DNA of 64,000 nt from Jonesia denitrificans DSM 20603 (GTDB lineage Bacteria > Actinomycetota > Actinomycetes > Actinomycetales > Cellulomonadaceae), in NCBI RefSeq assembly GCF_000024065.1, contig NC_013174.1, positions 620,001-684,000 on the forward strand. Reading direction: 5' to 3'. The position numbers were made by a program, and so were the translations under genes. Position 1 is the first letter of the stretch, and each line of letters begins with the position of its first letter. The notes beneath the pieces are model-generated. The model was given only the letters and a program-made list of their open reading frames with translations, did no database searches and was not told the DNA's origin. Shown one piece after another: positions 55,108 through 59,384 of the stretch.

Positions 55108-55212
55108 AGACAGTGGAGCAGTTCTCTAGAGGCACCGGCCCCCGCGACGGCGGTGTGCTAGTGACTGCGCTGACAAACTAACCAGTCAACTCAACGCGAA
55201 AGGGTGGTCCGC

Positions 55213-55506
55213 GTGTCGGTCTCCATCAAGCCGCTCGAGGACCGGATTGTGGTCAAGGCTCTTGAAGCTGAAACCACGTTGCCTTCCGGTCTTGTTATCC
55301 CAGACACTGCAAAGGAAAAGCCTCAGGAAGGTGAAGTTCTTGCAGTAGGTCCTGGTCGCATCGATGACAAAGGCAACCGCATTCCGGTTGATGTCAACGT
55401 TGGCGACAAGGTCATTTACTCCAAGTACGGCGGAACTGAGATCAAGTACGCTGGCGAGGAATACCTGATTCTTTCTGCTCGCGACGTGCTCGCGATCGTC
55501 GGCTGA
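55213..55506 (+). CDS. groES: Co-chaperonin GroES
   Basis: GroES caps the GroEL folding chamber. The 97-residue protein starts [14 protein letters not shown], has the mobile loop [16 protein letters not shown] (about 20-35) and ends [20 protein letters not shown]. The GTG at 55213 is chosen because it gives the family N-terminus and follows GAAAGG; the GTG at 55204 would add three residues. CIRCE and a promoter precede it. No groEL gene follows: a terminator comes 16 bases later and whiB is next, so GroEL must be encoded elsewhere. Confidence 0.95.
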
Positions 55507-55522: not shown

Positions 55523-55570
55523 AAAAACTCGGTGATCGACGCCCTGGACTGCGTCGATCACCGAGTTTTT
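55523..55570. terminator. Bidirectional terminator after groES
   Basis: A 20-bp stem (55523-55542 with 55551-55570) with A-tract and T-tract ends closes the 8-base loop CCTGGACT. Both strands have the form of an intrinsic terminator, fitting the convergent groES and whiB genes. Confidence 0.9.
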
Positions 55571-55608: not shown

Positions 55609-55656
55609 CGTGCGGGGGTGGGACGCCCTGGACTGCGTCCCGACCTCTGCCGCACG
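55609..55656. repeat. Second hairpin with the same loop, between groES and whiB
   Basis: GGGACGC (55620-55626) pairs with GCGTCCC (55635-55641) around the same loop CCTGGACT found in the groES terminator; the shared core GACGCCCTGGACTGCGTC occurs at 55538-55555 and 55622-55639. An outer stem, CGTGCGG (55609-55615) with CCGCACG (55650-55656), encloses it. It starts 7 bases beyond the whiB stop and probably is its terminator. Confidence 0.7.
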
Positions 55657-55662
55657 ACGGCG

Positions 55663-55971
55663 TTAGGCGATGCGGGTGACTTCTGCGGCCTGCCGGTCCC
55701 GTTCCGCGAGAATTGCGTGGCGCTCATCCTCTGAGAGGCCACCCCACACACCGTAGGGTTCACGCACTTTCAGGGACTGCTCGCGGCACTCCATCATGAC
55801 GGGGCATGTTGCGCAAATTGCTTTGGCCTTTTCTGCCCGACGACGGCGCGAGGATCCACGTTCGCCTTCGGGGTGGAAGAAGAGGGTGTCTTCGACGTCG
55901 CGGCATGCGCCTTGGTACTGCCATTCCCAGAGTTCCATGACTGGCCCTGGCAGACGTGAGACATCCGTCAT
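55663..55971 (-). CDS. WhiB-family iron-sulfur transcriptional regulator, WhiB3-like
   Basis: A 102-residue WhiB protein that should bind a [4Fe-4S] cluster and act with the principal sigma factor. The four cluster cysteines are Cys23, Cys53, Cys56 and Cys62 (GAC, then CATC and ECR), and the beta-turn motif GVWGG is at 74-78. The FFHPEGERG and EPYGVWGGLSEDER blocks, and synteny with groES and guaB, resemble mycobacterial WhiB3; subgroup naming is inferred. A strong GAAGGGAG site precedes the ATG. It is divergent from the MerR-type gene across 597 bases. Confidence 0.92.
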   Translation of the reverse strand: MTDVSRLPGPVMELWEWQYQGACRDVEDTLFFHPEGERGSSRRRRAEKAKAICATCPVMMECREQSLKVREPYGVWGGLSEDERHAILAERDRQAAEVTRIA

Positions 55972-56568
55972 CGTGTGCTCCCTTCGATGGTCCCACCGTT
56001 GTGGTGAGGATCACGTGTTATTTCGCGCTTGATGCATCCACCGTATATCGATTCGACAGTTGTTCAAAAGTGATTCGTGCGGGTGAAAAGTTGTTCGCGT
56101 CACGATGGGGGACGTTTTACCTATGAATTTTGGCGAAAATGAGCGCATCTCAGGCAGTTTTGGGGACTGCTATCCATGAAAGGGGGTTGTCAGACGCGAT
56201 TCGACACGTTCTTTCCCTCGACTCTGAGCATGTGTGCGCCGATAGAGATCGCGAGGGTGATCAATAGGGCCGTAGAAAACGACTCTGTTCACCGAGCATC
56301 CTCAAAGAGACAACAATCTGAACAATATGTGAACTGGTTAGTGGGGCCGTCTGGGTGCCATCGTCGTCAGATGAATCGGTTTTGACGCGTTTCTCGACAT
56401 GCGAAGAGAGGTGAGCTTCGGCATGATGGAGTTCTAGAACAGACCAAGAGACAGCCACGTAACGTCCGAGACACAACGTGCACAGAGCTGCACTTAACGC
56501 AGCCACGGTGCCGAACAACCCTCATCGCACGGCCCACACCGCATCGATGAAGGGGCGAGGGGGACATC
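55972..56568. other. whiB to merR-type gene divergent intergenic region (597 bases)
   Basis: It must hold promoters for whiB (minus) and the MerR-type gene (plus). I find no convincing gene: a 69-codon frame at 56176-56385 lacks a ribosome binding site and family resemblance. The part near 55990-56150 is noticeably richer in A and T than the surroundings, as expected of promoter DNA. I did not identify specific operators. Confidence 0.5.
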
Positions 56569-57768
56569 ATGGGAGCGAGGAATCCACGGGTGACGCGACA
56601 GCACAATCCGGCACTCAGTGTTGCGGCAGTGGCCCAACGACTCGGAGTGGCGCCATCAACTTTACGGACCTGGGACCGCCGCTACGGCCTCGGCCCATCT
56701 GCCCACTCCTTGGGATCGCACCGACGCTACAGCGCACAAGATGTAGCGCGGCTCATGGTGATGCGAACCTGGGTCCTCAAGGGAGCATCGGGAAGCGAGG
56801 CGGCACAAGCCGCCCAGGAACTTAACGCAGACGAACTTGACTACGTGACAGTCGAACGCGACCTCGATGACGCGCTTAGCCAATCAGGACTCAAACCCAC
56901 ACGGCTGACTGACACCCCAAGTGGCCCCAGTGCTTCCTCCCTACCATCAGCGTCCTCGAGTGACCCAGCGCCTTCCCAATCCGCCACACCACAAGATGCG
57001 CCGGAAGCCAGGAACACCGGTGCATCGATCTCCCGTCTGCGCGTTGCGCGCTCTGCACCAGAAACACCCCACCAACTTAGCTACCCAGAACGGTGCACGG
57101 AACTGGTCAAAGAGGCCCTGCAAGACAACGAGCTCGCCTGCACCACCCTGCTCCAAGTCGACCCCGATGACAACGTGATCGCATGGTGGAAACAACTAGT
57201 CCGGCCTGCTCTTGACCGCCTTGCCAGCCACACTGTCCTTGCTCGACCCGGACAAAATCCTCACCTCCTCGTGGGGAACCTCGCCCTGTCACAACTGCGA
57301 CGGTTCACCAGAGCCCTGGACGCGCGTAACCCCCAAGGGTCGCGACCACACCCGTCGCGCCTGCGCAATATTGTGCTCGTCTTCGCACCCCCCAACGACA
57401 CTCTTGCATTGCCCGCACACGTCCTCACCGCAGCGCTCCTTGCGAACAACCACAACGCTCACATCATCATTGGGCCAGAAAACGAACACCGGGTGACCGA
57501 ACTTGTCACCATGGTGCGCCCTGCCGCCGTGGTCTTCGTCTCCACTCACCGGGCCCCTGACCTGTCTGTCATTCGCACACTCGTCGACGTCCACCCCGAC
57601 CTGCCCACCTTCCTCGGGCTAGGGCCGGACATCGACCTCGGCGAACTCATCTCCCGGCCCCACGTATCCCGGATCCGGTCATTCACCGCGCTCTTCCACG
57701 AAGTTGCCGCCGCAGCCGGTAATCGAGCAAGCGCCCCCGACTACTGGAACGACAACAGCACACAGTGA
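56569..57768 (+). CDS. MerR-family transcriptional regulator with B12-binding-like C-terminal domain
   Basis: The 399-residue protein has an N-terminal MerR winged helix (about 16-85; RLGVAPSTLRTWDRRYG, SHRRYSAQDVARL). A Ser/Pro/Ala-rich linker (about 110-165) leads to a four-helix plus Rossmann region (about 175-385) resembling cobalamin-binding domains of CarH-like photoreceptors. The typical E/D-x-H-x-x-G cobalamin loop is replaced by DTLALP (about 285-290) and the W-x9-EH motif is absent, so B12 binding looks unlikely. Ligand and targets are unknown. It starts with ATG after GGGGGACATC and precedes guaB by 101 bases. Confidence 0.85.
   Translation: MGARNPRVTRQHNPALSVAAVAQRLGVAPSTLRTWDRRYGLGPSAHSLGSHRRYSAQDVARLMVMRTWVLKGASGSEAAQAAQELNADELDYVTVERDLDDALSQSGLKPTRLTDTPSGPSASSLPSASSSDPAPSQSATPQDAPEARNTGASISRLRVARSAPETPHQLSYPERCTELVKEALQDNELACTTLLQVDPDDNVIAWWKQLVRPALDRLASHTVLARPGQNPHLLVGNLALSQLRRFTRALDARNPQGSRPHPSRLRNIVLVFAPPNDTLALPAHVLTAALLANNHNAHIIIGPENEHRVTELVTMVRPAAVVFVSTHRAPDLSVIRTLVDVHPDLPTFLGLGPDIDLGELISRPHVSRIRSFTALFHEVAAAAGNRASAPDYWNDNSTQ

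Positions 57769-57860: not shown

Positions 57861-59384
<1,524 letters not shown>

Follow-up and report, generated by a model that had tools for sequence, protein, structure and literature searches.

We have analyzed a MerR-type regulator gene (merR) and the promoter that it faces in a 64,000-nucleotide stretch of the Jonesia denitrificans DSM 20603 genome (contig NC_013174.1, positions 620,001 to 684,000 of the forward strand), referred to here as the window. The gene is divergent from whiB and encodes a protein with a predicted CarH-type fold whose cobalamin site, judging from the sequence, is emptied. The whiB promoter contains a conserved element that is a candidate operator for the regulator. 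The protein probably controls whiB and probably derives from a CarH-like MerR regulator that bound cobalamin, having since become independent of B12. The features on which this reading is built are as follows.

56569-57768, + strand: MerR regulator with a B12-fold domain lacking the cobalamin motifs (399 amino acids)
56611-56817, + strand: MerR-type DNA-binding domain (residues 15-83; Pfam PF13411 and alignments)
56899-57063, + strand: linker (residues 111-165), poorly conserved and mostly of low predicted local distance difference test (pLDDT) score
57064-57333, + strand: four-helix bundle (residues 166-255), holding T222-x9-H232-L233
57361-57732, + strand: Rossmann subdomain (residues 265-388), with the lowest ratio of nonsynonymous to synonymous substitution rates (dN/dS) among the stretches compared
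57397-57414, + strand: DTLALP in place of the cobalamin motif [DE]xH (residues 277-282), with L279 at the cobalt-ligand position
56035-56073, - strand: whiB promoter element, predicted MerR operator, located with an iterated matrix
55663-55971, - strand: whiB of the WhiB3/WhiD type, the predicted target; its best solved match is M. tuberculosis WhiB3

The open reading frame (ORF) at 56569-57768 is a real gene, with widespread homologues and a dN/dS well below 1 against the orthologue from the same genus. Of 150 genomes from the GTDB family of J. denitrificans, 149 contain homologues at E <= 1e-3, some of them through the DNA-binding domain alone, and five other MerR matches occur in the J. denitrificans genome. 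PF13411 was matched over residues 17-83 (E 9e-13), and alignments indicate that the MerR domain is strongly conserved between orthologues that retain the cobalamin motifs (motif-intact) and those that do not (motif-lost). The CarH sequence in the PDB matches the protein at E 9.5e-9 over residues 15-92 only, the NCBIfam CarH model covers only residues 15-108, and no B12-binding Pfam model was matched at E <= 1. The initial annotation had proposed a CarH-like domain layout, to be checked by structure prediction, and the prediction bears it out. An AlphaFold2 model built from 21 homologues (mean pLDDT 80.6, predicted template modeling score 0.57) comprises the MerR domain, a linker of low confidence (pLDDT under 50 at residues 116-155) and, beyond it, a four-helix bundle followed by a Rossmann fold. 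Its top Foldseek match was full-length CarH (5c8f, E 1.8e-9), and the top VIA-align matches were B12-fold sensors with Z of about 15: 8j2y_B (Z 15.9, 197 residues aligned, root-mean-square deviation (rmsd) 3.3), 8j2w_A (Z 15.4), the AppA SCHIC domain 4heh_A (Z 15.3) and the CarH B12 domain 8c33_C (Z 15.0, 183 aligned, rmsd 2.8). Alignment to both domains of CarH 5c8d_G gave Z 14.8 (251 aligned, rmsd 18.3); matches less than one Z unit apart count as ties, and AppA SCHIC 4heh is thus tied with 5c8d_G. As modeled, the fold is that of CarH, with both the four-helix bundle and the Rossmann part matching.

The motifs that mark cobalamin binding are absent from this fold. In the family alignment, T222 stands at the position of the CarH tryptophan and H232-L233 stands for EH, so that W-x9-EH reads T222-x9-H232-L233. 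D277-T278-L279 stands for [DE]xH, and motif-intact orthologues carry His at the position of L279. For reference, the W, EH and H of a motif-intact orthologue from Pseudonocardia dioxanivorans (L083) align with those of Thermus thermophilus LitR/CarH (3whp). The initial annotation had described exactly these two changes, the replacement of the cobalamin histidine motif by DTLALP and the loss of W-x9-EH, and the alignment upholds both.

Comparisons were made over 193 loci of the regulator family, which are the best matches of several searches and include near-copies (L062/L210, L061/L063, L133/L162), some perhaps one assembly from two collections. Three incomplete proteins (L050, L057, L166) and a duplicate of the window (L142) were dropped before counting, and eight small loci gave way to larger regions covering the same places. 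The element counts do not include 14 further family members, of which four, L242-L245, enter the tree and the adenosyltransferase counts. A divergent whiB was found within 800 bp of merR at 175 of the 193 loci. The remaining 18 were excluded from the element matrix: five have merR without whiB, and 13 appear to be paralogues located in different contexts. Divergent whiB is present at 77 of 80 named loci, the usual flanks being groES and guaB or guaB3 where the contig reaches. From public genomes the best 80 of 325 relatives were taken, and these 80 include Pseudonocardia, Saccharothrix, Lentzea, Frankia, Amycolatopsis and Nanopelagicales, along with many metagenome-assembled genomes. The divergent whiB-merR arrangement is seen in the window, where the regulator had been annotated as divergent from whiB and just before guaB. 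The whiB product matches M. tuberculosis WhiB3 at E 1.9e-31 vs 3.8e-15 for WhiB1, WhiD and WhiB3 being described as orthologues (PMC4255298). The conserved flanks are:

55204-55506, + strand: groES
57870-59384, + strand: guaB (inosine monophosphate dehydrogenase), the next gene after the regulator, with no match nearby to the genus-level pattern described below

Cobalamin motif loss extends well beyond the window. The 175 whiB-linked loci comprise 105 with both histidines and 70 without (near-copies included). In the taxonomic family of the window, W and the EH histidine are lost at 45 of 45 whiB-linked loci examined and the cobalt histidine at 44 of 45, with L041 retaining ExH despite the loss of W and EH. 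The loss is therefore common across the family and not a peculiarity of the J. denitrificans genome. Other families of the order show it too (f3, f8, f12, f13, f14 and part of f17). A quickly built tree of 54 proteins, computed with the motif columns removed and L242-L245 included, requires three changes of motif state; this tree has three long branches and several unsupported forks. Outside the tree, alignment points to apparent further losses in Amycolatopsis (L132, L137, L139), Saccharopolyspora (L136) and Actinophytocola xanthii (L118). In a Pfam scan of five motif-intact orthologues, the cut-offs of both PF02310 and PF02607 were passed by L054 and that of PF02607 by three more. Among three motif-lost orthologues, two from the window's family passed neither and Amycolatopsis L132 passed PF02607. 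One genus (L046, L047, L049, L052, L211) keeps EH and DxH and has V at the tryptophan position, and three of its five loci have low scores for the promoter element described below; it is possibly an intermediate in motif loss.

The emptied B12 domain remains under purifying selection. Against the same-genus orthologue, dN/dS is lowest in the Rossmann part (0.036), followed by the whole B12 fold (0.058), the DNA-binding domain (0.069) and the linker (0.34, residues 91-165), as calculated by NG86 with dS of 1.3-2.4, which is near saturation. Residues invariant across 21 family sequences include W206, W207, H284, E311, R317 and R368.

Conservation in the whiB-merR gap of the window's family lies mainly near whiB and just before merR. 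An iterated matrix built from the whiB-linked gaps gave an element that reads, on the whiB strand, about CTTGAaCAAC-tTnTG-nnGCG-gTTgTA-nggT. It spans a -35 resembling that of sigma-A promoters (TTGAaC) and a -10 (TAnnnT), separated by 17 bp, and the spacer is conserved as well as the hexamers. The copy in the window has -35 TTGAAC (56062-56067) and -10 TACGGT (56040-56045) separated by 16 bp, and scores 20.0 vs a shuffled maximum of -2.2 (in-sample). The element exceeds the 95% point of shuffled gaps at 171 of the 175 linked loci (in-sample) and a score of 8 at 163. A matrix from motif-intact loci alone gives scores beyond the 99% point of shuffled gaps in 67 of the 70 motif-lost gaps, and the reverse matrix, trained on motif-lost loci, finds 100 of the 105 motif-intact gaps.

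The element is specific to this locus and co-occurs with merR and whiB when both are present. Where whiB orthologues have no adjacent merR, the score over 700 bp upstream is below 0 in 18 of 18; the highest (-0.5) lies above the shuffled maximum of -2.2, and the others are at -8.8 or lower. Three of these genes (L212-L214) have groES and guaB as neighbors on either side, which is also the arrangement of the window, and two more adjoin guaB (L215, L216). A contrast within one genus is weak but runs the same way, with 12.6 in G165, which has merR, and -9.1 in G302, which does not. Conversely, at five of five merR loci without a divergent whiB (L133, L162, L164, L165 and L169, all motif-intact, L133 and L162 looking identical in sequence), scores on the whiB strand range from -13.5 to -23.8. 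Genome-wide patterns, written after the sites were known, gave a similar picture. A 25-base family pattern allowing up to two mismatches has one genomic match in each of the 12 family genomes outside the window's genus, every one of them in the whiB-merR gap. A class-wide pattern has exactly one match, again in that gap, in 18 of 24 genomes and none in six. The genus pattern matches once in the J. denitrificans genome (56042-56069) and once in the sister genome. The three patterns together yield 31 distinct genomes with a single match at the locus, G013 being in two sets. As controls, the reversed family pattern matched once each in G045 and G041, and the reversed class-wide pattern once, in G440.

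The places where whiB stands without merR were also searched for the regulator. Among 43 genomes chosen as likely to lack a whiB-linked merR, 18 have a WhiB3-type whiB (105 bits or more) and 25 have weaker WhiB matches only, at most 74.5 bits; some of the 18 (e.g. G422, G506) carry an unlinked family-like protein elsewhere. A hidden Markov model (HMM) of the regulator family, run on 1085 ORFs from 23 stretches covering the 18 merR-less whiB places, returned a best E of 0.64, and no member was found with it in wider regions of five of these places (L257-L261). In group f22, probably mycobacteria and their kin, another ORF lies divergent from the WhiB3-type whiB. It was considered as a remnant of the merR family without the helix-turn-helix and was rejected, having no family-HMM hit with filters off.

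Two further observations concern sites of this kind. The sequence AGTTGTTC is found next to the predicted whiB promoter at 56058-56065 and, 31 bp away, at 56089-56096, and occurs six times in the window vs 2.2 expected; it is possibly a second half-site. At L192 (G506), a relative not linked to whiB, a similar sequence lies about 60 bp before the merR match and scores 10.1 on the strand of that gene, a hint that the sites recognized by related MerR proteins are themselves related.

The supply of adenosylated cofactor was assessed through matches to two adenosyltransferase families, PF01923 and PF02572, in 54 genomes selected because they contain the locus (46 genera, every genome 90% complete or better). 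A match to one or the other is present in 23 of 23 motif-intact genomes and in 9 of 31 motif-lost genomes, G009 weakly (37 bits), and is missing from 22 of the 31. G181 and G224 have lost the motifs and kept both enzyme families. The J. denitrificans genome has no match to either family. The raw association of motif loss with adenosyltransferase loss gives a Fisher p of 2.7e-8, and there is one independent pair on well-supported branches and three on all branches.

The explanation that we favor begins with a CarH-like, cobalamin-binding MerR ancestor, which would have used adenosylcobalamin and light. In this lineage the cobalamin motifs would have been lost and the regulator would have stayed on as a whiB switch, its main job being control of the divergent WhiB3/WhiD-type promoter. 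The MerR protein would bind the promoter-embedded element that overlaps the whiB -35 and -10. Since the element overlaps both hexamers at normal spacing, steric repression would be the most likely mode, through blocking of sigma-A RNA polymerase as by CarH and CarA. We hold repression of whiB specifically with somewhat less confidence than control of whiB as such. As for the cue that the emptied domain responds to, our first choice is a scaffold role or protein contact and our second is a new ligand such as heme. We suggest more tentatively, as an extension that may well prove wrong, that in many Actinomycetia WhiB3/WhiD is gated at a single site by a dedicated cobalamin (light) sensor, which here would have been converted in place to a different cue while the operator and the gene pair were retained.

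Several points weigh against the favored explanation. The matrix and the patterns derive from the very loci that they describe, among which close relatives are frequent, and the sites for cross-training were those placed by the joint matrix. The element in the window is weaker than most (20.0 vs a median of 37.6) with a spacer of 16 rather than 17 bp, a near relative (L203) scores only 1.2, and 12 of the 175 linked gaps fall below 8, including the motif-lost genus of L182 and L199. The merR-less whiB orthologues belong mostly to other lineages, and promoter drift could therefore mimic co-loss of the element. The family pattern has one off-locus match with two mismatches in each genome of the window's genus, because the sites of that genus themselves deviate from the pattern, and the reversed control pattern matches three and four times in these two genomes. 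WhiB3-type whiB is absent from the four genomes of L162, L164, L165 and L169 (best match 56 bits, compared with 127 and more in three whiB-linked genomes); these keep a motif-intact merR, whose product must then act on something else, and whiB is not its only possible target. The adenosyltransferase correlation rests on three changes of motif state, which leaves the independent-pairs test without power; with 9 of the 31 motif-lost genomes still matching the enzyme, the correlation is a matter of consistency and not of proof. Finally, 17 bp is normal promoter spacing, so that repression, as opposed to activation, is an inference.

Known systems give the proposed mechanism its outline. CarH binds 11-bp direct repeats that overlap a sigma-A promoter and blocks polymerase, and CarA of Myxococcus xanthus, its paralogue lacking Wx9EH, blocks in the same way without B12 (PMC8156234, PMC9304148). 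The window protein resembles CarH/LitR in joining a MerR domain to a four-helix bundle and a Rossmann B12 fold and in having a predicted site that overlaps a sigma-A promoter, and many of its orthologues carry W-x9-EH and [DE]xH. It differs in lacking both motifs, in residing in a genome without a PF01923/PF02572 match and in having whiB as its predicted target, and the CarH operator nAnnTnnACAn is not obvious in the whiB element, as compared by eye only. Nor do we propose extended direct repeats in the element, a reading likewise inspected only by eye. The likeness to CarA lies in the loss of Wx9EH and in an operator common to a B12-dependent relative; here the element stands for the operator, and the B12-dependence of the relatives is judged from their motifs. 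CarA, by contrast, is the product of a duplication and has retained the lower-axial motif and the capacity to bind B12 (PMC8156234, PMC9304148), whereas in the window the gene at the orthologous place has itself changed and the cobalt histidine is lost (L279). Another arrangement of a MerR domain followed by a C-terminal domain, as in the window protein, is that of BluR/MlrA of Escherichia coli. The C-terminal domain of BluR/MlrA has a B12-like fold. It is able to receive protein partners (PMC3509220). Sequence similarity to MlrA covers the DNA-binding domain only (NCBIfam MlrA model, residues 18-78, E 2.3e-6, 27.1 bits vs a cut-off of 417).

How the emptied domain works within the favored explanation can be read in two ways. 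It may serve as a dimerization scaffold only, in which case the protein would either repress constitutively, to a degree fixed by its own abundance, or be relieved by an antirepressor, as CarA is by CarS. CarA provides the precedent, being B12-independent and without Wx9EH, forming stable dimers and using the same operator as CarH (PMC9304148, PMC8156234). The constraint on the Rossmann part is stronger than expected for a scaffold alone, and no partner gene was identified, no search for one having been made; we regard this role as a serious possibility falling somewhat short of an even chance.

A rival to whiB control by the regulator would make the element simply the core promoter of whiB, recognized by a factor other than the MerR protein (e.g. 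WhiB with sigma-A), with the MerR neighbor regulating something else. Its good sigma-A hexamers, its low scores at 12 of 175 linked loci and the four genomes with merR but neither whiB nor element, in which other merR targets are possible, would all fit. This rival accounts poorly for the 18 of 18 merR-less orthologues that lack the element though whiB is retained, for conservation of the spacer and not the hexamers alone, and for head-to-head synteny at 175 of 193 loci with an element confined to that place; we consider it unlikely.

Within the favored explanation, recruitment of the emptied domain for a new ligand seems rather improbable, heme being one example; it would give a two-layer redox switch over an iron-sulfur (Fe-S) WhiB protein. 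The strongest purifying selection on the Rossmann part and the invariant residues listed above speak for it, and AppA SCHIC, a B12-type fold without cobalamin, ranks with the closest fold matches (4heh, Z 15.3, tied with CarH), its match covering the B12-fold part only. In SCHIC proteins the heme histidine lies two residues from the cobalt-ligand position (PMC9144470), and this histidine has no counterpart in the window protein, which has L281 at +2 and D277 at -2; heme binding by position was accordingly rejected. H284, at +5, is also common in motif-intact orthologues.

Weak cobalamin binding without the histidine, using imported vitamin, might be suggested by the ExH that L041 keeps despite loss of W and EH, and is very improbable for a protein that has lost W and EH as well as the cobalt histidine and whose genome has no PF01923/PF02572 match, the search having covered these two adenosyltransferase families.

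A role directed at guaB was set aside, because the guaB match lies anywhere from 26 to 6705 bp downstream over 146 loci (median 850) and the genus pattern matches the genome at whiB only. Of the redox or nucleotide-linked switch suggested in the initial annotation, the whiB link is thus strengthened by the locus-specific promoter element and the guaB link is not supported.

Most actinomycetes possess WhiB3/WhiD, an Fe-S regulator that takes part in virulence in one genus and in sporulation in another (PMC4255298). No paper linking a CarH-type protein to WhiB3/WhiD was found among the best-ranked open-access papers, the subscription literature lying outside this scope, and a term search of the SignatureFinder article (PMC11796333) did not return WhiB. 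What appears to be new is the predicted, locus-specific target of a B12-fold MerR regulator without B12 motifs. If whiB control holds, B12 and perhaps light would feed directly into the redox network of many actinobacteria, and the motif-lost lineages would show a transcription factor keeping its target after its cofactor has disappeared. Conversion in place, if true, would amount to a natural experiment in which a photoreceptor was rewired to another sensor with the circuit unchanged. Because the predicted operator is locus-specific, the claim is unusually easy to test.

Two minor observations concern whiB and its surroundings. In the J. denitrificans window, the 18-base sequence GACGCCCTGGACTGCGTC occurs twice exactly between groES and whiB (55538-55555 and 55622-55639) vs 0.01 expected in shuffles. 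It can form a short hairpin, and the first copy is part of a more extended inverted repeat that resembles a terminator. Genome G000 has, outside the window, a pair of whiB-like matches of equal score (C1:2335012-2335206 and 2468545-2468739), possibly a duplicated or mobile segment.
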